Shown here: one piece after another, positions 2,470 through 9,458 of the stretch
Layout of the letters: the number at the start of each line of letters is the position of its first letter
Numbering within the stretch: position 1 is the stretch's first letter
Assembly (NCBI GenBank): GCA_009392775.1
Contig: VFFT01000061.1
Coordinates: forward strand, 1 to 10,447
Source: SAR202 cluster bacterium
GTDB taxonomy: Bacteria > Chloroflexota > Dehalococcoidia > UBA3495
DNA length: 10,447 nucleotides
Direction of reading: 5' to 3'
Made by a program: the position numbers and the translations under genes
The notes under the pieces: model-generated
What the model was told of the DNA's origin: nothing
Database searches by the model: none
What the model saw: the letters and a program-made list of their open reading frames with translations, nothing else

Positions 2470-3714
2470 CTACTTTGATGGACGTTTCGCTGAAAGTCCC
2501 ATTAAAACTGTGATTCCGCCGAGAACGGCAAATCCGTAGAATGCTGACATGTACGTTCCTGTAACATCAAAAACATAACCGGACAACACTGCGCCAATCG
2601 CTTGCCCACCGGCCAACATAGACTCGGTAACTCCTCTTATTGCACCCAGAGAACTTCGACCGAAGTAATCAGCATATGCCACTGGTGGTACCACGAGCAT
2701 ACCGGCAACTCCGACTCCGAATAGCCCTGCATATACCAAGGCCTCTATATTTGTGTCGGCTTGAGGGAACAATCCTATAGACACTGCTATAACCAATGCC
2801 ACTGCAGCAAAAGCAAATCTGACTGGAACTTTTTCCGATAACCATCCCCAAGCTAAAGTCCCAACCCCAGCCATAACCCCACTACCGCTAACCGCCAGTG
2901 CCGATATCTTCAGGCTTAGGCCTTGATCAATGAAATACGCGCCTTGATGCATATTAGTACCAGACTGAATCAAATACAGGAATCCAGTACCTATAGCTAA
3001 TAACCACAACGACTTGGTTCCAATAGCCTCTTTAACGTTCCACCTCGGCTCTTCACTATTTACCTGGGCGACTGCATCATCCGATTGATGAGCAGTATCG
3101 CCATCTGGGAGCAAACCCAAATCCTCAGGGCTTTGGCGAATGAATATTAATACTGGCAATAGAGCAAACACCCAAACCATGGCGCCTAATAAGATCCATG
3201 CCTGTTGCCACCCTCTAGACTGAATAAAAATAAATGCAACATAGGGAAATACCGCCATGCCCACAGCATGGCAGAAAAACAAAATACCATTTGCCCTCCC
3301 CCTCATCTTTACGAACCATCTCGATACAACCACCGACGCACCTATTGGAATAGGACCAGTAAAAAGCAATCTTCCTAATCCAAACGCTGCATAGAACGCT
3401 ACCAATAAGGTTGCCCATGACAGGGAAATAGTAGTTATACCCAATAAAAACACACCCACAAGTAAAACCCATCTAACACCGAACTTATCGCACGCCCACC
3501 CAGTCACAGGTGCACCTACGATCGAGAGAAGCCCTCCTAAACTTGCAGCCCCGGCTATCTCTGTTCTAGACCAACCTAGATCAGCTTCCATTGGATATAC
3601 AAACACTGCAATGGTTAAACTTCCTGCAGCATTCCTGACGAACATAGACAAACCAGCAGAAAGTACTATTACCCAACCATAATAAAATGGCAGACGTTTA
3701 CTTAATCGGTTCAA
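2470..3714 (-). CDS. MFS transporter, oxalate/formate antiporter or monocarboxylate type
   Basis: A 414-aa inner-membrane protein with about 12 hydrophobic helices in two halves of six, split by a hydrophilic loop around residues 195-225. The N-terminal FYYGWVIV motif (10-17), the motif-A-like GWACDKFGVRW between helices 2 and 3, and the matching GWLSEKVPVR in the second half are typical of the OFA/monocarboxylate branch of the major facilitator superfamily, which moves small organic acids. The start is TTG at 3714-3712: its first two bases overlap the last two of the upstream TGA (shared TTGA), a GGAAGG sequence lies about 9 nt upstream, and no ATG occurs until codon 24, already inside helix 1. 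Translation is therefore probably coupled to the small membrane protein. Substrate unknown; a carboxylate for the adjacent lyase/PEPCK pair is an inference from location. Confidence 0.88.
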   Translation of the reverse strand: MNRLSKRLPFYYGWVIVLSAGLSMFVRNAAGSLTIAVFVYPMEADLGWSRTEIAGAASLGGLLSIVGAPVTGWACDKFGVRWVLLVGVFLLGITTISLSWATLLVAFYAAFGLGRLLFTGPIPIGASVVVSRWFVKMRGRANGILFFCHAVGMAVFPYVAFIFIQSRGWQQAWILLGAMVWVFALLPVLIFIRQSPEDLGLLPDGDTAHQSDDAVAQVNSEEPRWNVKEAIGTKSLWLLAIGTGFLYLIQSGTNMHQGAYFIDQGLSLKISALAVSGSGVMAGVGTLAWGWLSEKVPVRFAFAAVALVIAVSIGLFPQADTNIEALVYAGLFGVGVAGMLVVPPVAYADYFGRSSLGAIRGVTESMLAGGQAIGAVLSGYVFDVTGTYMSAFYGFAVLGGITVLMGLSAKRPSK

Positions 3715-4091
3715 TCTGCGGGACCTTCCGAAGTATCTACTTCATTTTTTTCACTCTTCAGAGCAGCGTACATTGCCCCTAAGGCGCTCATACTGCCGGA
3801 ATATAGGGTCAGTATGGCCACCATTATCCATACGAAGGCAACTTTATTTGGACCAATATCAAGTACTGCAATTAGCGCAAGTGCGATCATGATGAAAACC
3901 GCGAGGCTAAACACCCCTATCCAAGCCCCATATTTGAGCCCTCTGATAGATGGAGAATCAGTTCTATCTTTAGCAAATGAAATACCCACATAACCGGCAA
4001 TAAATGGGCTGATTGGCCATGTAAAATGTACAACCGGAATCAGAAGATATCCCACAATTATACCCAGCCCGACTAGAACCCCTATACCCAT
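3711..4091 (-). CDS. Small four-helix membrane protein, function unknown
   Basis: A 126-aa protein I do not recognise. Hydrophobic stretches at about residues 1-18, 21-40, 55-79 and 84-110 suggest four membrane helices, with a basic/polar loop at 41-54 (AKDRTDSPSIRG) and a charged, acidic C-terminal tail (SEKNEVDTSEGPAD). The start ATG is preceded by GAGG about 7 nt upstream. It overlaps the MFS gene by 4 nt (TTGA), so the two are co-expressed. A role as accessory subunit or stabiliser of the transporter is possible, but the sequence does not show it. It resembles no classical DctQ/TctB small subunit closely enough to name. Confidence 0.75.
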   Translation of the reverse strand: MGIGVLVGLGIIVGYLLIPVVHFTWPISPFIAGYVGISFAKDRTDSPSIRGLKYGAWIGVFSLAVFIMIALALIAVLDIGPNKVAFVWIMVAILTLYSGSMSALGAMYAALKSEKNEVDTSEGPAD

Positions 4092-4248
4092 TAGCTTCCC
4101 TCGTCATGTATTTAAACTAGCTAAAATGTACTCCGTTTATGTACTTATAATGTTCTCGGTATAACCACAGCATGAAAAAAAGCGCGAGAGTAAGTATACT
4201 TGATTCTTAATAATATTAAGAGCCCTAATTCACATACGGAAACAGGAC
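4092..4248. promoter_or_regulatory. Divergent intergenic region with short repeats and palindromes
   Basis: This spacer separates the leftward membrane-protein/MFS unit from the rightward HAD gene and must hold both promoters. It contains a direct repeat ATGTACT at 4126-4132 and 4139-4145 (13-nt period), a consensus -10 TATAAT at 4146-4151 on the + strand without a convincing -35, a 10-bp perfect palindrome AAGTATACTT (4192-4201), and a 6-bp inverted repeat CTTAAT-AAT-ATTAAG (4206-4220) just before the HAD gene. No binding protein can be assigned. Confidence 0.4.
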
Positions 4249-4953
4249 ATGACTGACATACACAAAGAGCCCATAAACACACTAACGTTTGATATATTTG
4301 GAACAGTTCTTGACTTATCAGGTAGTCTGATACCTCCTACTCACGAATTTTTATCGTCACACAAGTCAAATGTATCAGCACAAATATTTTGGCAAGACTG
4401 GAGGTCTCGTCAGCGTATCGAACAGTATCAAGACAATATTCTCATGCTGGGGCATTCTGGATACCAATACACCTGCCGCCGTGCATTCATATACTGTTTA
4501 AACCTCCATAAAATTCCATTTGAGGAATCTGAAGTAGATCAATTCATGTCTGCATACAGGGACCTGAAACCCTATCCTGATGCTATTGACGGGCTAAAAG
4601 CGCTCTCAGAAAGGTATGAACTAGTAGCTTTATCCAACGGAGAATTAAACTTCCTAGAACATTTAGTGGAAAACAATATCAAAATCCCATTCAAGGCAAT
4701 ATTTTCCGTCGAAAGTGTAGGACAATTCAAACCGAGTCCGGGTATATATCGGTACGCTGCGCAATCACTGCACAAATCACCCGAGGAGATAATGATGGTA
4801 GCCGCGCACGCATTCGATATCCTTGGAGCACAAAGTTGCGGGTACCGCGGTGCATACGTAAACAGATATGACCTTCCTACAGAATATTCACTCTACCAGC
4901 CAGATATAGTGGTCAAAGATTTCCTAGCATTATCAGAGATATTATTATCTTGA
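4249..4953 (+). CDS. HAD superfamily hydrolase, haloacid dehalogenase type II-like
   Basis: A 234-aa cytoplasmic protein of the length and motif order of (S)-2-haloacid dehalogenases. Motif I TFDIFGTVLD gives the nucleophile D15 and T19; W51-R52 matches the WR pair holding the substrate-binding Arg; motif II is SNG (S129, N130); motif III Lys is K161 in FKPSPGIY, with Y167 following; motif IV MVAAHAFDILGA supplies D190. Known L-2-haloacid dehalogenases carry Ser and Asn upstream of that last Asp; here they are Ala and His (AAHAFD), a variant seen in the broader type II group, so dehalogenation is plausible but a phosphatase or another ester substrate cannot be excluded. AGGA lies very close (1 nt) to the ATG, so ribosome binding may be weak or use the GGA at 4238-4240. 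No terminator is seen after it. Confidence 0.82.
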   Translation: MTDIHKEPINTLTFDIFGTVLDLSGSLIPPTHEFLSSHKSNVSAQIFWQDWRSRQRIEQYQDNILMLGHSGYQYTCRRAFIYCLNLHKIPFEESEVDQFMSAYRDLKPYPDAIDGLKALSERYELVALSNGELNFLEHLVENNIKIPFKAIFSVESVGQFKPSPGIYRYAAQSLHKSPEEIMMVAAHAFDILGAQSCGYRGAYVNRYDLPTEYSLYQPDIVVKDFLALSEILLS

Positions 4954-4980
4954 CTCGAGGCGCCAAGACGGCTTAATTAA

Positions 4981-5010
4981 TTGGTAACTGACAATATCAG
5001 GTGTTATACT
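4981..5010 (+). promoter_or_regulatory. Promoter with candidate operator for the Rrf2 gene
   Basis: TTGGTA (4981-4986) and TATACT (5005-5010) are spaced by 18 nt. Between them is the imperfect palindrome CTGACAATATCAG (4988-5000; 4-bp perfect arms CTGA/TCAG). A dyad between -35 and -10 just upstream of a regulator gene suits autorepression; that is an inference. Confidence 0.45.
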
Positions 5011-5042
5011 TCTGTTATAAAGCGACCCTAGGAGAGCTAACT

Positions 5043-5474
5043 ATGCGGATACCTATGAAGGTCGATTATGGCGTGAGAGCACTCATGGAGCTTGCCAGTC
5101 AATACGGGCAGGGCCAAGTGCAAACCGCAGATATAGCAGTAAAACAAGGGATACCTGAATCATATCTAGAGCAACTGATGGCTGCCCTCAGTAAAGAGGG
5201 ACTAGTTGTGAGTCGACGAGGACCGAAAGGTGGCCACTCTCTAAGCATGCCCCCCTCTGAGATCACATTGAGTATGGTAATGGATACACTCGAGCCCAAC
5301 AGTTCTCCACTTGATTGCATCACGTCTCCAGAAGACTGTATGTTTTCCGTAAGCTGCGCTCAACAAGAGATATGGAAATCAGTAGAACAATCCATACACA
5401 ACGTGTTAAGCAGCATTACTTTAGAAAATTTAACCCAAAGGCAAAACTACTTAACTGAAACTGGCATTGCCTGA
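5043..5474 (+). CDS. Rrf2/IscR-family transcriptional regulator with a three-cysteine motif
   Basis: A 143-aa DNA-binding regulator. The opening MRIPMKVDYGVRALMELA matches the Rrf2 N-terminus; the winged helix follows with a recognition-helix region ESYLEQLMAALSKEGLV (39-55) and the wing SRRGPKGGHSL (57-67). Cysteines at 92, 99 and 105 (C-x6-C-x5-C) fall where IscR holds its [2Fe-2S] ligands (Cys92/98/104), which suggests an Fe-S or redox sensor, unlike CymR which lacks this set. The ATG at 5043 is chosen over the GTG at 5001 because AGGAGAG (5030-5036) sits 6 nt upstream and family homology begins there. It lies directly upstream of the MoeB/CysM genes in the same direction, so control of sulfur or Fe-S metabolism and of its own promoter is likely. 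No terminator is evident after it. Confidence 0.88.
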   Translation: MRIPMKVDYGVRALMELASQYGQGQVQTADIAVKQGIPESYLEQLMAALSKEGLVVSRRGPKGGHSLSMPPSEITLSMVMDTLEPNSSPLDCITSPEDCMFSVSCAQQEIWKSVEQSIHNVLSSITLENLTQRQNYLTETGIA

Positions 5475-5532
5475 TTCGTCACCACACATATAACCCTCTA
5501 TCCCAAACCCATTTAAAAAGAATATACTGATC

Positions 5533-5561
5533 TTGACAAGGAATCTTACCCCGGATAGACT
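5533..5561 (+). promoter_or_regulatory. Strong sigma70-type promoter for the cysteine operon leader
   Basis: TTGACA (5533-5538, perfect consensus) and TAGACT (5556-5561) are separated by exactly 17 nt. The expected start site is near A5568, giving only about 4 nt before the leader-peptide ATG at 5572. The -35 box is embedded in the small palindrome CTTGACAAG (5532-5540), which could also be a regulator contact. Confidence 0.75.
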
Positions 5562-5571
5562 CGAAGTAAAG

Positions 5572-5625
5572 ATGAACGTAAAAACATCACATTATAAACA
5601 CTGTTGTAACTGTCCCCGCAAATAG
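5572..5625 (+). CDS. Cysteine-rich leader peptide (MNVKTSHYKHCCNCPRK)
   Basis: A 17-codon ORF, ATG at 5572 and TAG at 5623-5625, containing TGT TGT AAC TGT (5602-5613) for Cys-Cys-Asn-Cys. It begins about 4 nt after the predicted start site of the promoter at 5533-5561, so it would be translated from a nearly leaderless mRNA; there is no Shine-Dalgarno sequence, only an AAG-rich stretch. Its cysteine codons abut the 5' arm of a hairpin and its stop codon shares G5625 with the 3' arm, the placement expected of a sensor ORF in transcription attenuation. The genes downstream make cysteine. Polycysteine leaderless ORFs with this role are known in mycobacteria. The peptide itself probably has no other function, although an HxCCxC metal-binding role cannot be excluded. 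Too short for routine gene callers. Confidence 0.7.
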   Translation: MNVKTSHYKHCCNCPRK

Positions 5626-5659
5626 GGACAGGTTAATACAAACCAAGATACAAGCCTGT

Positions 5660-5700
5660 GCCCGCCCGGATTAATATCCACATAGGAGCGCGGGCTTTTT
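5660..5700 (+). terminator. Intrinsic terminator of the attenuator
   Basis: A 6-bp all-GC stem, GCCCGC with GCGGGC, closes a 24-nt loop that can fold internally (GGAT-TAAT-ATCC at 5668-5679, or TCC-ACATA-GGA at 5677-5687). It is followed immediately by TTTTT (5696-5700). It sits 52 nt before the moeB start rather than after a gene, which supports a regulatory role. Confidence 0.72.
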
Positions 5701-5737
5701 ACTTGTATAGAGTATAACAATTCGACTTAATATGACT

Positions 5738-5743
5738 GGAGGT
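5738..5743 (+). promoter_or_regulatory. Shine-Dalgarno sequence that decides the moeB start
   Basis: GGAGGT, 9 nt before the ATG at 5753, is a near-ideal ribosome binding site. It lies downstream of the alternative in-frame ATG at 5732, so the shorter product is the real one. Confidence 0.8.
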
Positions 5744-5752
5744 AACCTGGAG

Positions 5753-6589
5753 ATGACACAGCAATCCAAACCCCTTACTCCCGACCAAGTAAAGCGCTAT
5801 AGCCGCCACATAATAATGAACGACGTCGGCAGTAGTGGCCAGCGCAAGCTGATGGGATCCAAGGCATTAATCATTGGGGCCGGAGGTTTAGGTTCCCCTG
5901 CAGCTGTATATTTATCCCTAGCAGGTGTAGGCACTGTCGGCATGGTAGATTTTGACGTTGTGGAACTCTCAAATCTGCAAAGACAAATCCTCCACCATAC
6001 CCCAGATGTTGGAAGACCTAAGTTAGAGTCGGGGAAAGACAATCTGTTGGCTTACAATCCCGATGTAAACGTCGTGCTACACGAAGTAAGACTAGAGTCC
6101 GACAATGCCATAGACATTATTAATCAGTACGATCTCGTGATTAACGGAGCCGACAACTTCGCCACCAGGTATCTTGTGAACGACGCCTGTTACCTTTTAA
6201 ATAAACCGCTAGTAGATGGCAGCATACTGATCTTTGATGGCCAAGCAACTGTGTTTGTCCCAGGTGAAGGCTGTTACAGATGCCTGTTCCCATCACCCCC
6301 CCCACCAGGGATGGTCCCGAACTGTGCTGAAGCAGGGGTATTGGGAGCCCTTACAGGACTTGTAGGGAGCATACAAGCGACCGAAGCTTTAAAATATTTC
6401 TTAGGTATTGGAGAAAGCTTAATATCCAGATTGCTTTTGGTAGACGCTCTATCCATGACCTTCAGAGAAGTCAAACTAAAACGCAATCCACAGTGTCCTC
6501 TTTGCGGAGACAATCCTACGGTAACGGAACTGATTGATTACGAAATATTCTGCGGACTGGGAAGCCCTGAGGAGATGGGAGTCGTTTAA
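5753..6589 (+). CDS. moeB: MoeB/ThiF/MoeZ-family sulfur-carrier adenylyltransferase
   Basis: A 278-aa E1-like enzyme that adenylates the C-terminal Gly-Gly of a small ubiquitin-like sulfur carrier in the cytoplasm, allowing thiocarboxylation. Landmarks: LTPDQVKRYSRHIIM opening (8-22), nucleotide-binding GAGGLG (42-47), SNLQRQIL (73-80) with the catalytic-type Arg, DNF.TRYLVND (134-144), CYRC (174-177) and CPLC (248-251) zinc ligands, and C191 in VPNCAEAGVLG where the family has its conserved cysteine. It ends shortly after NPTVTELIDYEIFCG, exactly where MoeZ proteins would continue into a rhodanese domain; that domain is absent. The start at 5753 is set by GGAGGT. It follows the cysteine attenuator and precedes cysM by 56 nt, so its likely partner is a CysO-like carrier for cysteine synthesis, although molybdopterin or thiamine carriers are possible. 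Confidence 0.9.
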   Translation: MTQQSKPLTPDQVKRYSRHIIMNDVGSSGQRKLMGSKALIIGAGGLGSPAAVYLSLAGVGTVGMVDFDVVELSNLQRQILHHTPDVGRPKLESGKDNLLAYNPDVNVVLHEVRLESDNAIDIINQYDLVINGADNFATRYLVNDACYLLNKPLVDGSILIFDGQATVFVPGEGCYRCLFPSPPPPGMVPNCAEAGVLGALTGLVGSIQATEALKYFLGIGESLISRLLLVDALSMTFREVKLKRNPQCPLCGDNPTVTELIDYEIFCGLGSPEEMGVV

Positions 6590-6645
6590 CTCAAACATAA
6601 TCTCTGAATCTGTCAAATATCTGGCTACAATACAATATAGGATGG

Positions 6646-7611
6646 ATGAAACCTTACAAAATGGTAACTAAGCAAAATTATAAAGGCATTCTGTCAACCA
6701 TTGGAAACACTCCGGAAGTGGAATTAGAGAATCTGAGTCCTAACCCGGCAGTCAAGATAATAGCTAAGCTGGAAGGTCAAAACCCCACTGGTAGCGTCAA
6801 AGACCGGATTGCTCTAAGAATGATAGAACAAGCCGAAAGGGCAGGAGATCTCAGTAAAGATAAGACAATCTTAGAACCGACTAGCGGAAATACTGGTATC
6901 TCCCTGGCTATGATCGGTAGGCTAAAGGGATATAAAGTTACCGTGGTCATGCCAGAGAATGTCAGCTCTGAACGTACCCAGTTGCTTGAAGCGTATGGTG
7001 CGGAAATCATATATTCAGAAGGATCACTAGGAACTAACGGCTCCATAGAACGTGCTCATGAAGTTTATCAAAGCCATCCTACTGACTACATCATGATGTA
7101 CCAATACGGTAATGAAGCCAATCCTGAGGCACACTATCATGGCACGGCCTTAGAAATAATTAATAACCACCCAGATATGGACATGTTTGTGGCCGGGCTA
7201 GGAACAGGTGGGACGCTGATGGGTAACGCTAGGAGACTAAAGGAGCATAACCCTGATATAAAAGTCGTCGCTGTTGCTCCCGAGCCAGACGATTTCATAT
7301 CCGGATTACGCAGACTAGAGGATGGTTTCATTCCTCCAATACTAGACATATCACTGCTAGATGCTCGTCTCATGGTGGGCAGCTACGATGCATTCCACAC
7401 CACTAAGCGCTTATTAAACGAAGAAGGCATTTTCGCAGGGGTATCTTCTGGCTCAGTCGTACACGCCGCGATTAAACAGGCCGAACGAGTAGAACAAGGG
7501 AAGATCGTATGCTTACTAGCCGATGGTGGATGGAAATACCTAAGTACAAGTCTTTGGACAAAAGATTACTCTGATCTCGAGCGCGAATCAAAGGGCAAAA
7601 TATGGTGGTGA
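6646..7611 (+). CDS. cysM: CysM-type cysteine synthase, probably O-phosphoserine-dependent
   Basis: A 321-aa fold type II PLP enzyme. K52 in NPTGSVKDR is the Schiff-base lysine, TSGNTG (79-84) the substrate loop, GTGGT (186-190) the PLP-phosphate loop, and SSGS (267-270) lies near the pyridine nitrogen. From memory of Mycobacterium tuberculosis CysM, this protein shares the long blocks ERTQLLEAYGAEII (109-122), YQYGNEANPEAHYHGT (152-167) and GGWKYLST (294-301) and the aromatic C-terminus KIWW. R222 in GLRRLEDGF lines up with Arg220, which selects O-phosphoserine there. CysM of that kind takes sulfur from a thiocarboxylated carrier, fitting the upstream moeB. The ATG at 6646 has only AGG 4 nt before it; the ATG at 6661 is an alternative start that still leaves the fold intact. 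The hairpin at 7731-7755 may end the operon. Confidence 0.9.
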   Translation: MKPYKMVTKQNYKGILSTIGNTPEVELENLSPNPAVKIIAKLEGQNPTGSVKDRIALRMIEQAERAGDLSKDKTILEPTSGNTGISLAMIGRLKGYKVTVVMPENVSSERTQLLEAYGAEIIYSEGSLGTNGSIERAHEVYQSHPTDYIMMYQYGNEANPEAHYHGTALEIINNHPDMDMFVAGLGTGGTLMGNARRLKEHNPDIKVVAVAPEPDDFISGLRRLEDGFIPPILDISLLDARLMVGSYDAFHTTKRLLNEEGIFAGVSSGSVVHAAIKQAERVEQGKIVCLLADGGWKYLSTSLWTKDYSDLERESKGKIWW

Positions 7612-7683
7612 GTACTTATACGTTTTCAGGCCGCTAGGAAATCTATCTTAATACTTCAATCACGCAAATCACCTAGGTAAATC

Positions 7684-7712
7684 TTGAAAGTGCCCCCCCT
7701 CAATGATATACT
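7684..7712 (+). promoter_or_regulatory. Promoter for nusA
   Basis: TTGAAA (7684-7689) and TATACT (7707-7712) are separated by 17 nt. The expected start site is near 7719, about 90 nt before nusA and only about a dozen bases before the hairpin at 7731. The preceding stretch 7612-7683 shows nothing recognisable. Confidence 0.6.
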
Positions 7713-7730
7713 CAGCCAACATAGTTTATT

Positions 7731-7755
7731 AGAAAGCGGGTTAAACCCGCTTTCT
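7731..7755. terminator. Strong symmetric hairpin, intrinsic terminator (possibly bidirectional)
   Basis: A perfect 11-bp stem, AGAAAGCGGGT (7731-7741) with ACCCGCTTTCT (7745-7755), and a 3-nt TAA loop. The core GCGGGT/ACCCGC is flanked by AGAAA on one side and TTTCTT on the other, giving a modest T tract on both strands. It can end the cysM transcript, but it also lies inside the predicted nusA leader, so it may attenuate nusA. Confidence 0.75.
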
Positions 7756-7808
7756 TGCTGGTTGGCGACTACTAACCTAGCTAAATGTGAACATCAGGGA
7801 GTTTGACA

Positions 7809-9458
7809 ATGAAAAGTGACTTCTTAATCGCGTTAACCCAGCTAGCTGCAGAACGCCACCTCCCTAAAGAACAAGTATTATCAGCCATAGAAGTAGCTCT
7901 TGCGTCGGCATTTAAAAAGGATAGCAACGCATCCGGGCAAAATATCACAGTTAATCTAAATCCCAATACCGGAGATGTCAGCGTTTTCGCACTGAAAACT
8001 GTTGTGGATACAGTCGAGGATTCTGACAGAGAAATCACTGTACTCGACGCCCAGTCTATCCATAAAGACGCAATAGTAGGCGAAGAAATTGCCCTTCCTG
8101 AGCCACTACCTCACAATGCCAGTCGCATTGCCGCCCAAACTGCCAAACAAGTCGTCCTCCAAAAACTCAGGGAAGCTGAACGCGAACTATTGTATGACGA
8201 GTTCATCCAACATAAAGACGATATCGTCTCAGGAATAATAGACCAAGTCGATGGCAATCGCAGTGTGCAAATTGATCTGGGCAGAGCCCAAGCTGTTATG
8301 CCTAGCGACGAACAAGTCTTCAGTGAAAGATATCGAAAAGGGCAACGACTGAAAGTGTTTGTCTTAGACGTCAGAACTAGCCCAAAGGGTCCAGAGATAT
8401 TAGTATCTCGTAGCCACAAGAATCTCCTAAAAAGACTATTTGAGATTGAAGTTCCCGAAGTGTACAACGGAGTAGTCGAGATAAAAGCAATAGCCAGGGA
8501 CCCCGGATTTAGAAGTAAGGTTGCAGTCAACTCTACACAAGATGGAATCGATCCAGTCGGTTCTTGTATAGGTGTAAGAGGAAACCGTATACAGAGCATA
8601 GTCAATGAACTACAAGGAGAAAAGATAGACGTAGTACCCTGGGACGATGATCCAAAAGAGTTTATAGCAAAAGCATTAAGTCCCTCCGAAGTAGTCCACG
8701 TAGAACTCGAACCCTCTGAGCAAACCGCAGTCGTAGCGGTGCCAGACCGACAGTTATCGTTGGCTATAGGAAGAGAAGGCCAAAACGCAAGACTAGCTGC
8801 TAGACTCGCAGGTTGGCGGTTAGACATAAAAGGTTTATCGGAATGGGAAGCGTATCAGGAAACGAAACAACTGCAAGCCGTGGAAGAAGAGATAACTGAG
8901 ATACCGTCAGATACCGAAGACGGTATTTTATCCATAGATGACGTCTCTGACGAAGCTATCCTAGTTAACGAGCTAGCAGTTGAAGCGCCCCCGACTCCTG
9001 CTACGGTTGGAATAGATACCACTGAAACCATTTCCGATGAACCGGTGTCTACCTCAGACACCCCGGCGCTCACCGGTCAGGAAGAATCAGCTATCGAGAA
9101 TCAAATAATAGATGAAGATGCCGTTCTGGAGGCTCTGATCAGGGAAGAGGAAATGACAGTAGAGGTCGACACGCCTTCTGCCGATCAGGAATCTGCTCCC
9201 GACCAAAGCCTAAGCGTAGACAGCTTGCAAGAATTTACTTTAGACGACATAAGTTCATCAGATATGGATGTTGAAGAGGACGTTGACTCCGAAGATACTG
9301 ACATACCTGATCTACCTATCCTTACTCCTGATGCGGGTAAAATCCGGTTTGCGGAGGATATAGTACCAGAACAGAGAGGCTCCGGCAGAAGAGACAGGCG
9401 TAACCGACGAAGTGGGGCAGGTGCAAACACGAATCGCCGTGGAGGCTCTGGTAGATAG
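7809..9458 (+). CDS. nusA: Transcription termination/antitermination factor NusA with long acidic tail
   Basis: A 549-aa RNA-polymerase-binding factor that modulates pausing, intrinsic termination and antitermination. The N-terminal domain is about 1-125, opening MKSDFLIALTQLAAERHLPKE; the S1 domain about 134-203; KH1 and KH2 follow, with KH motifs GSCIGVRGNRIQSI (251-264) and AIGREGQNARLAARL (319-333). After the KH core, around residue 345, comes a tail of about 170 residues rich in Asp/Glu/Ser/Thr, then a basic Arg-Gly/Asn end (RGSGRRDRRNRRSG... to 549). Usual Gram-positive-type NusA stops near 350-380 aa. ATG 7809 is chosen over the upstream TTG (7803) because AGGGAG (7796-7801) is 7 nt away and the family begins with MK-S/N. 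rimP, normally upstream, is absent; ylxR appears decayed downstream. Confidence 0.97.
   Translation: MKSDFLIALTQLAAERHLPKEQVLSAIEVALASAFKKDSNASGQNITVNLNPNTGDVSVFALKTVVDTVEDSDREITVLDAQSIHKDAIVGEEIALPEPLPHNASRIAAQTAKQVVLQKLREAERELLYDEFIQHKDDIVSGIIDQVDGNRSVQIDLGRAQAVMPSDEQVFSERYRKGQRLKVFVLDVRTSPKGPEILVSRSHKNLLKRLFEIEVPEVYNGVVEIKAIARDPGFRSKVAVNSTQDGIDPVGSCIGVRGNRIQSIVNELQGEKIDVVPWDDDPKEFIAKALSPSEVVHVELEPSEQTAVVAVPDRQLSLAIGREGQNARLAARLAGWRLDIKGLSEWEAYQETKQLQAVEEEITEIPSDTEDGILSIDDVSDEAILVNELAVEAPPTPATVGIDTTETISDEPVSTSDTPALTGQEESAIENQIIDEDAVLEALIREEEMTVEVDTPSADQESAPDQSLSVDSLQEFTLDDISSSDMDVEEDVDSEDTDIPDLPILTPDAGKIRFAEDIVPEQRGSGRRDRRNRRSGAGANTNRRGGSGR

Follow-up and report, generated by a model that had tools for sequence, protein, structure and literature searches.

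A predicted cysteine-codon transcription attenuator upstream of moeB-cysM in SAR202 bacteria

The leader in front of the moeB-cysM genes of a SAR202 cluster bacterium very probably attenuates transcription by a ribosome-mediated mechanism that responds to charged tRNA-Cys. We obtained its anatomy, its conservation, its alternative folds and its association with a second sulfur gene by computation. The stretch of DNA analysed, referred to as the window, comprises positions 1 to 10,447 of contig VFFT01000061.1 (assembly GCA_009392775.1), and all features described below are on its forward strand. A preliminary description of positions 5533-5752, made from the letters alone, had read this region as a cysteine-codon attenuator in an apparently non-actinobacterial lineage. 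Both parts of this reading are upheld. The source belongs to the Dehalococcoidia of the Chloroflexota, and the MoeB protein encoded in the window shares 97% identity with that of a Dehalococcoidia metagenome-assembled genome (MAG), and 87% and 83% with those of two SAR202 MAGs. The attenuator itself is supported by its recurrence, by Cys codons kept in frame, by its stems and by a second site before a sulfite-reductase-type gene.

Anatomy of the leader and its surroundings

The gene downstream of the leader (5753-6589) encodes a MoeB/MoeZ-type E1 adenylyltransferase (NCBIfam NF004281, 288.6 versus a cut-off of 266; ThiF, PF00899). Its reading frame is open from 5732, and the start at 5753 is preferred, with a GGAGG motif at 5738-5742. 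It is followed by a cysM-type cysteine synthase gene (6646-7611; TIGR01136 cysKM, 357.7 versus a cut-off of 344). A gene encoding an Rrf2-family regulator is located directly upstream of the leader (5043-5474; TIGR00738, 123.7 versus 73.3), but the protein scores below the cut-offs of both IscR and CymR. An Rrf2-family gene is also present just upstream in many relatives, and its product might bind the same promoter. The order rrf2, moeB, cysM is kept in many relatives, often with nusA as the next gene. Between cysM and nusA, the window contains a promoter-like site (7684-7712) matching 10 of 12 positions, with a TG before the -10 box, and nusA may therefore have its own promoter. At the other end of the window, the region 1-1512 is an ORF, open at the window start, with a partial match to phosphoenolpyruvate carboxykinase (113 bits versus a cut-off of 369). 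Across the window, no Rfam family reached its gathering score.

As the preliminary description had stated, the leader is preceded by a consensus promoter (5533-5561), consisting of a -35 box TTGACA (5533-5538), a 17-nt spacer and a -10 box TAGACT (5556-5561). Promoter-like sites alone are unremarkable, since the window contains 15 of them versus 19.6 expected; what counts is therefore the conservation of this promoter rather than its presence. The leader ORF (5572-5625) has 17 codons encoding the 17-residue peptide MNVKTSHYKHCCNCPRK, followed by a TAG stop codon. Its ATG lies 10 nt 3' of the -10 box, which would make it practically leaderless and leaves no space for a Shine-Dalgarno site. The predicted regulatory codons, TGT TGT AAC TGT (Cys-Cys-Asn-Cys), occupy positions 5602-5613, so that the ORF and its Cys codons are as previously described.

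The leader can form three alternative stems. Arm 1 (5610-5616) pairs perfectly over 7 bp with positions 5625-5631 (-11.3 kcal/mol). The Cys codons are located just ahead of and inside arm 1, the last one overlapping it, and the last base of the TAG stop codon is the first base of arm 2. Arm 2 (5625-5634) serves as the 3' arm of the 1:2 hairpin and also as the 5' side of the antiterminator. If arm 1 is masked and arm 4 has yet to be made, it forms 10 pairs with positions 5653-5663, leaving G5660 bulged. Both of these stems had been proposed before, and they are present at the proposed positions. Arm 3 (5652-5663; consensus GCCTGCGCCC in alignment A2) closes the antiterminator with positions 5653-5663 as its 3' arm and, with positions 5652-5663, is also the 5' arm of an intrinsic terminator, whose 3' side (5685-5700) is made up of arm 4 (5685-5697) and a U-run (5696-5700).

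The earlier account of the terminator needs correction with respect to its register. The proposed segments GCCCGC (5660-5665) and GCGGGC (5690-5695) are indeed complementary and are followed by five Ts, but this 6-bp register (-10.7 kcal/mol) was rejected in favour of the longer pairing 5652-5663:5685-5697, which has 12 pairs and reaches -23.5 kcal/mol including an inner hairpin. The first nine pairs of the latter (5652-5660:5689-5697) correspond to the consensus of the relatives. In the corrected register, nearly the same stretch of arm 3 is used in 2:3 and 3:4, and these two pairings therefore exclude each other. The terminator ends about 40 nt ahead of the moeB GGAGG motif. The leader as a whole (5568-5700) folds with -40.1 kcal/mol (z -4.6), and none of 200 shuffled sequences was equally stable. 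At equilibrium, the finished RNA of the window favours the terminator even when arm 1 is removed, which implies that antitermination needs a kinetic trap.

Recurrence upstream of moeB and of a sulfite-reductase-type gene

We searched 118 related genomes and found moeB in 107 of them, at 108 places. Excluding the one in G107, located at a contig end, and adding two further loci gave the 109 loci (L081-L189) that were analysed. A leader of the form TGY-N3-TGY-...-TAG, encoding Cys-x-Cys (CxC), is present upstream of moeB in the window and at 38 of the 109 related loci. Conservation of the Cys codons, which had been put forward as a check of the attenuator, is thus found in this subset; as these 39 leaders were picked by the CxC motif itself, its presence in 39/39 is by selection. 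A recognisable leader is absent before moeB in some close relatives (e.g., L099, L113, L124 and L128). When the loci were simply scanned for a Cys leader with a terminator, 37 of the 39 core loci were recovered versus 0.3 expected from dinucleotide shuffles, and a T-run of at least TTT is present at the terminator end in all 39. The N-terminal residues of the leader peptides are diverse, and in the moeB relatives the end is usually CxCPx(T/K). At 13 moeB loci (L005, L009, L011, L015, L019, L020, L022, L027, L035, L041, L044, L049 and L059), a start resembling the sulfur carrier CysO, recognised by motif match only, is open straight into moeB, as if the carrier were fused to its own activating enzyme. 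The C-terminal Gly-Gly of a sulfur carrier should be free.

At E ≤ 0.01, the covariance model R1, built from the moeB leaders, had matches in 34 of 59 relatives, and in many of these it located a second leader site; a weak match to the opposite strand at the moeB site of G011 was left uncounted. Model R2, built from the second sites, matched 37 of the 59 relatives at E ≤ 0.05. Three weak R2 matches (L268, L269 and L270), which precede unrelated genes and have no Cys leader, were dropped as chance matches. The second site was found in 32 of the 59 genomes (L249 and L260, two contigs of G036, being counted once, with L249 representing that genome in the frame test below), and in all 32 the next gene is of the sulfite/nitrite-reductase type, beginning 26-107 nt past the end of the model match. 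The gene following the reductase is hemD in 29 of the 32; in L226, the stretch is too short to tell. One member each of the reductase and HemD was checked against family libraries. The reductase did not reach the cut-off of any named NCBIfam equivalog, and sulfite rather than nitrite is therefore suggested as its substrate by the genetic setting. Both sites are carried by 25 of the 59 genomes, or by 26 if a contig-end match in G010 is included.

The sulfite-reductase leaders are richer in Cys than those of moeB, with up to five Cys codons, as in MKLVNGTSCTCCCCPPT (L232) and MLKLDGNLCACCCICPRT (L239). In 12 of the 32, the stop codon is missing at the conserved place and the frame runs on for 4-6 codons (L233, L234, L235, L237, L241, L243, L244 and L261-L265). 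Since the delayed stop lies within or past arm 2, a ribosome finishing translation could still cover this arm. A search for cysH with a cut-off of E ≤ 1e-40 gave no homologue in the first 24 relatives listed for G002 and eight matches in the other 16. Of the 24 genomes lacking a cysH match (G002, G001 and 22 other near relatives), 16 have a sulfite-reductase gene preceded by the predicted attenuator; organic sulfur compounds may be the source of the sulfite.

Promoter, reading frame and Cys codons are kept in both sets of leaders. Of the 39 moeB leaders, 37 have TTGACA and, 8-12 nt ahead of their start codon, a -10-type box, which is mostly TAGACT and otherwise TACACT, TAAACT or TAGGCT. The distance from the end of the -10 box to the leader start is 8-12 nt in the moeB set and 5-9 nt in the sulfite-reductase set. 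As transcription usually starts some 7 nt 3' of the -10 box, a 5' UTR of 1-5 nt is predicted for the moeB leaders. We then took, regardless of frame, the first ATG or GTG located 5-12 nt after the -10 box. This codon is in frame with the Cys pair, and open up to it, in 37/37 moeB and 27/27 sulfite-reductase leaders, where about one third would be expected by chance in either set; 2 of the 39 moeB and 5 of the 32 sulfite-reductase rows, which do not fit the narrow promoter/start pattern, were left out of this test. Cysteine accounts for 92 of 635 residues in the moeB leaders and 108 of 516 in the sulfite-reductase leaders, versus 19 of 2345 in seven proteins encoded in the window. Moreover, the in-frame TGN codons 5' of the conserved pair are TGC or TGT in 17 of 18 (moeB) and 57 of 58 (sulfite reductase) cases, in a count that excluded TGA by construction and scanned 12 codons in the sulfite-reductase set. 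As nearly all are Cys codons and both synonyms are used, the amino acid, and not the RNA alone, seems to be kept. At the conserved Cys pair, which partly overlaps arm 1, RNA and coding constraints are inseparable.

Farther from the core set, most of the class members sampled had no match to the moeB-leader model. Among the 71 moeB loci outside the strict set, 64 had enough upstream sequence, and 8 of these contain a Cys leader followed by a terminator versus 0.1 expected from shuffles; two (L111 and L123) are close relatives and the other six are at 64-69% MoeB identity. A class-wide R1 search, strictly filtered and limited to scoring 10 candidates in each genome, matched 4 of 393 genomes at E ≤ 0.01; among them, L252 was counted as false because its motif lacks Cys codons. 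In G065 (L242; contig C105, about 3600-8106), a leader MCCCTCPP precedes a gene for a TauE-like permease, with a cysH-type gene further on, and a second nearby Cys leader, VCTCRP, precedes a sulfite-reductase gene. G125 and G071 likewise have a Cys leader before a sulfite-reductase gene. Relatives of G125 provided 30 sulfite-reductase loci (31 matches, one without a locus), of which L297 and L300 begin inside the gene, making the upstream scan void. A Cys leader plus terminator was found in only two (L271 and L272) of the 28 usable loci, and the device therefore looks lineage-restricted.

Conservation and covariation of the pairings

A 1:2 stem of at least 6 bp, the 2:3 pairing in a simulated stalled state and the terminator in a simulated stop-codon state are all present in 39/39 moeB leaders and 24/24 sulfite-reductase leaders; these simulated states are foldings of cut sequences, not kinetics. 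The three pairings together were also obtained in 23% of 780 (moeB) and 16% of 480 (sulfite reductase) dinucleotide shuffles. Single pairings of at least 6 bp are common in shuffled sequences (45-72%), the rates for the moeB set being 57% for 1:2 and 49% for 2:3. The stalled-state folds are modestly more stable than those of shuffles, with a mean z of -1.1 for the moeB set (-1.6 for the window) and -2.3 for the sulfite-reductase set.

When arms were swapped between genomes, the pairing was weakened. In the moeB set, the z values were -6.4 for 1:2, -4.3 for 2:3 and -2.4 for 3:4, versus 0.0 to -1.4 for the control swaps 1:3, 2:4 and 1:4. The corresponding values for the sulfite-reductase set were -3.4, -1.35 and -5.6, and non-partner arms in both sets gave 0.4 to -1.8. 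When arms were exchanged between nearest relatives in the moeB set, the cognate arm was not clearly favoured (better/worse counts of 21/18 for 1:2, 17/16 for 2:3 and 20/14 for 3:4).

In the moeB alignment, RNAalifold predicted nine terminator pairs, two of which have two-sided changes (in one and three sequences, respectively). Alignment A3 contains 24 sulfite-reductase leaders and omits L249 (contig end), L260-L267 (later finds), L242, L242b and L251 (distant) and L252 (false). At terminator pair 81:108, 18 of its 24 rows have A-U and 5 have G-C. For 1:2 and 3:4 together, 90.8% of the cells of A3 are paired versus 30-56% when the arms are slid against each other. The covariation score and the number of doubly changed cells beat all 500 shuffles, but the number of pair types is not above that of the shuffles (405 of 500). 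The 2:3 pairing of the sulfite-reductase leaders is equally well kept (92.7% paired versus 40-60% when slid), but its covariation does not exceed that of shuffles (345 of 500). Hence, the compensatory changes anticipated for all three stems were found for 1:2 and 3:4, where changes on both sides keep the pairing, whereas 2:3 is conserved with mixed covariation. Arms 2 and 3 each have two partners, which may explain why they vary so little.

A cysteine-responsive attenuator: mechanism, alternatives and relatives

From these features we infer a leaderless start, translation of the leader, ribosome stalling, a cotranscriptional choice between folds and a response to cysteine. The transcript would begin a few bases ahead of the leader AUG, with a ribosome initiating at its 5' end. 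When Cys-tRNA is scarce, the ribosome would stall on the Cys codons and cover arm 1. Arm 2 would then pair with arm 3 as the RNA polymerase passes, arm 4 would be left without a partner, and transcription would proceed into moeB and cysM. When Cys-tRNA is ample, the ribosome would either cover arm 2 at the stop codon or leave, allowing 1:2 to form. In either case, arm 3 would be free to pair with arm 4, and transcription would terminate at about 5696-5700. As the controlled genes would make sulfide and cysteine, the loop would close on its own product.

Three other explanations were weighed. An Rrf2-type regulator related to CymR or IscR could control the promoter, in which case the hairpin would terminate constitutively but leakily and the leader ORF would be incidental. 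The Rrf2 gene directly upstream in the window and in many relatives fits this possibility, and so does the precedent of CymR, which controls cysteine genes in Firmicutes. However, it leaves the in-frame Cys codons, the alternative pairings and the second site before the sulfite-reductase gene unexplained, and the protein scores below the CymR and IscR cut-offs; we consider it highly improbable. The attenuator model works without this frequent neighbour, and the Rrf2 protein may act in addition to the attenuator. That the conserved, structured 5' region ahead of cysteine genes acts as a riboswitch for a metabolite or as a Cys T-box, the ORF being a by-product of the RNA sequence, is the least probable of the three and can practically be set aside: no Rfam family reaches its gathering score in the window, and outside the stems the sequence varies while the frame and the Cys codons, including synonymous TGT/TGC, are kept.

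The remaining explanation, to which we give a small but somewhat larger probability, is translational attenuation of the mycobacterial type, in which a stalled ribosome would free the ribosome-binding site of the next gene through a rearrangement of hairpins. The type of leader is alike, being Cys-rich and, as predicted here, practically leaderless, and PMC13236596 describes the cysteine genes of M. smegmatis as being under translation attenuation. In contrast, a T-run ends the last hairpin of all 39 moeB leaders, and the hairpin of the window lies about 40 nt before GGAGG. By this placement, the hairpin would end transcription rather than hide a binding site.

In the well-known trp attenuator, a leader peptide rich in codons for the product amino acid has its stop codon near arm 2, and mutually exclusive 1:2, 2:3 and 3:4 stems precede an intrinsic terminator. 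The leader described here resembles such trp/his-type attenuators in the sequence and folds of its Cys-codon leader peptide, stop codon at arm 2, exclusive stems and intrinsic terminator. The only Rfam match of region 5520-5760 up to an E value of 5 is Trp_leader (RF00513), aligned over its full length with 13.7 bits (E 3.2), which is far below the gathering score of 41. The leader differs from the trp/his leaders in that it is predicted to sense Cys and to be practically leaderless, and in that it occurs in Chloroflexota.

Cysteine leaders have been reported in other phyla. According to PMC8632094, uORFC-8-2, found only before cysS in Rhodobacterales, combines a Cys-codon uORF having two tandem Cys codons in the first of two prominent stems with a terminator-type stem and a U-run, and transcription attenuation by Cys-tRNA was proposed. 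Our leaders share the Cys-codon uORF and the terminator-type stem with U-run; compared by that description, they differ in their CxC arrangement, in the additional conserved antiterminator pairing and in the genes concerned (moeB-cysM and sulfite reductase). The leaderless polycysteine short ORFs of mycobacteria (Canestrari et al. 2020, mmi.14498) are cited in PMC13236596 as a case of translation attenuation, and PMC1262725 records a 2005 prediction of Cys leader peptides before cysteine genes of Actinobacteria, without conserved terminator hairpins (for further references, see PMC9094748 and PMC2965389). The mycobacterial ORFs, leaderless according to the 2020 title, resemble ours in having a run of Cys codons before cysteine genes; unlike them, the SAR202 leaders have a conserved terminator-type hairpin with a T-run (39/39). 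In the literature searched, mostly outside subscription journals, we found no description of a Cys attenuator in SAR202 or other Chloroflexota. This kind of attenuator is already known, but the combination of cysteine, an intrinsic terminator, a near-leaderless start, sulfur-assimilation genes and Chloroflexota appears to be new.

More tentatively, we can imagine a small sulfur regulon comprising moeB-cysM, sulfite reductase-hemD and, in places, cysH and a sulfite/sulfonate permease, under an old leaderless Cys attenuation by termination in Chloroflexota, whose logic would be shared with the leaderless polycysteine ORFs of Actinobacteria through a common ancestor or repeated evolution; we regard this wider picture as possible but doubtful.

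SAR202 bacteria, most of which have yet to be cultured, are abundant in the deep ocean. In the literature searched, mainly the part open without subscription, we found none of their sulfur genes described as being under an attenuator. Cysteine, together with termination at an intrinsic hairpin and a start close to the 5' end, would join the amino acids sensed by trp/his-type attenuators; in the same partial literature we found no such system described for Chloroflexota. If the model is true, the two-operon attenuator regulon would provide a direct signal of cysteine limitation in these bacteria, readable in metatranscriptomes as the ratio of terminated to full-length leader.
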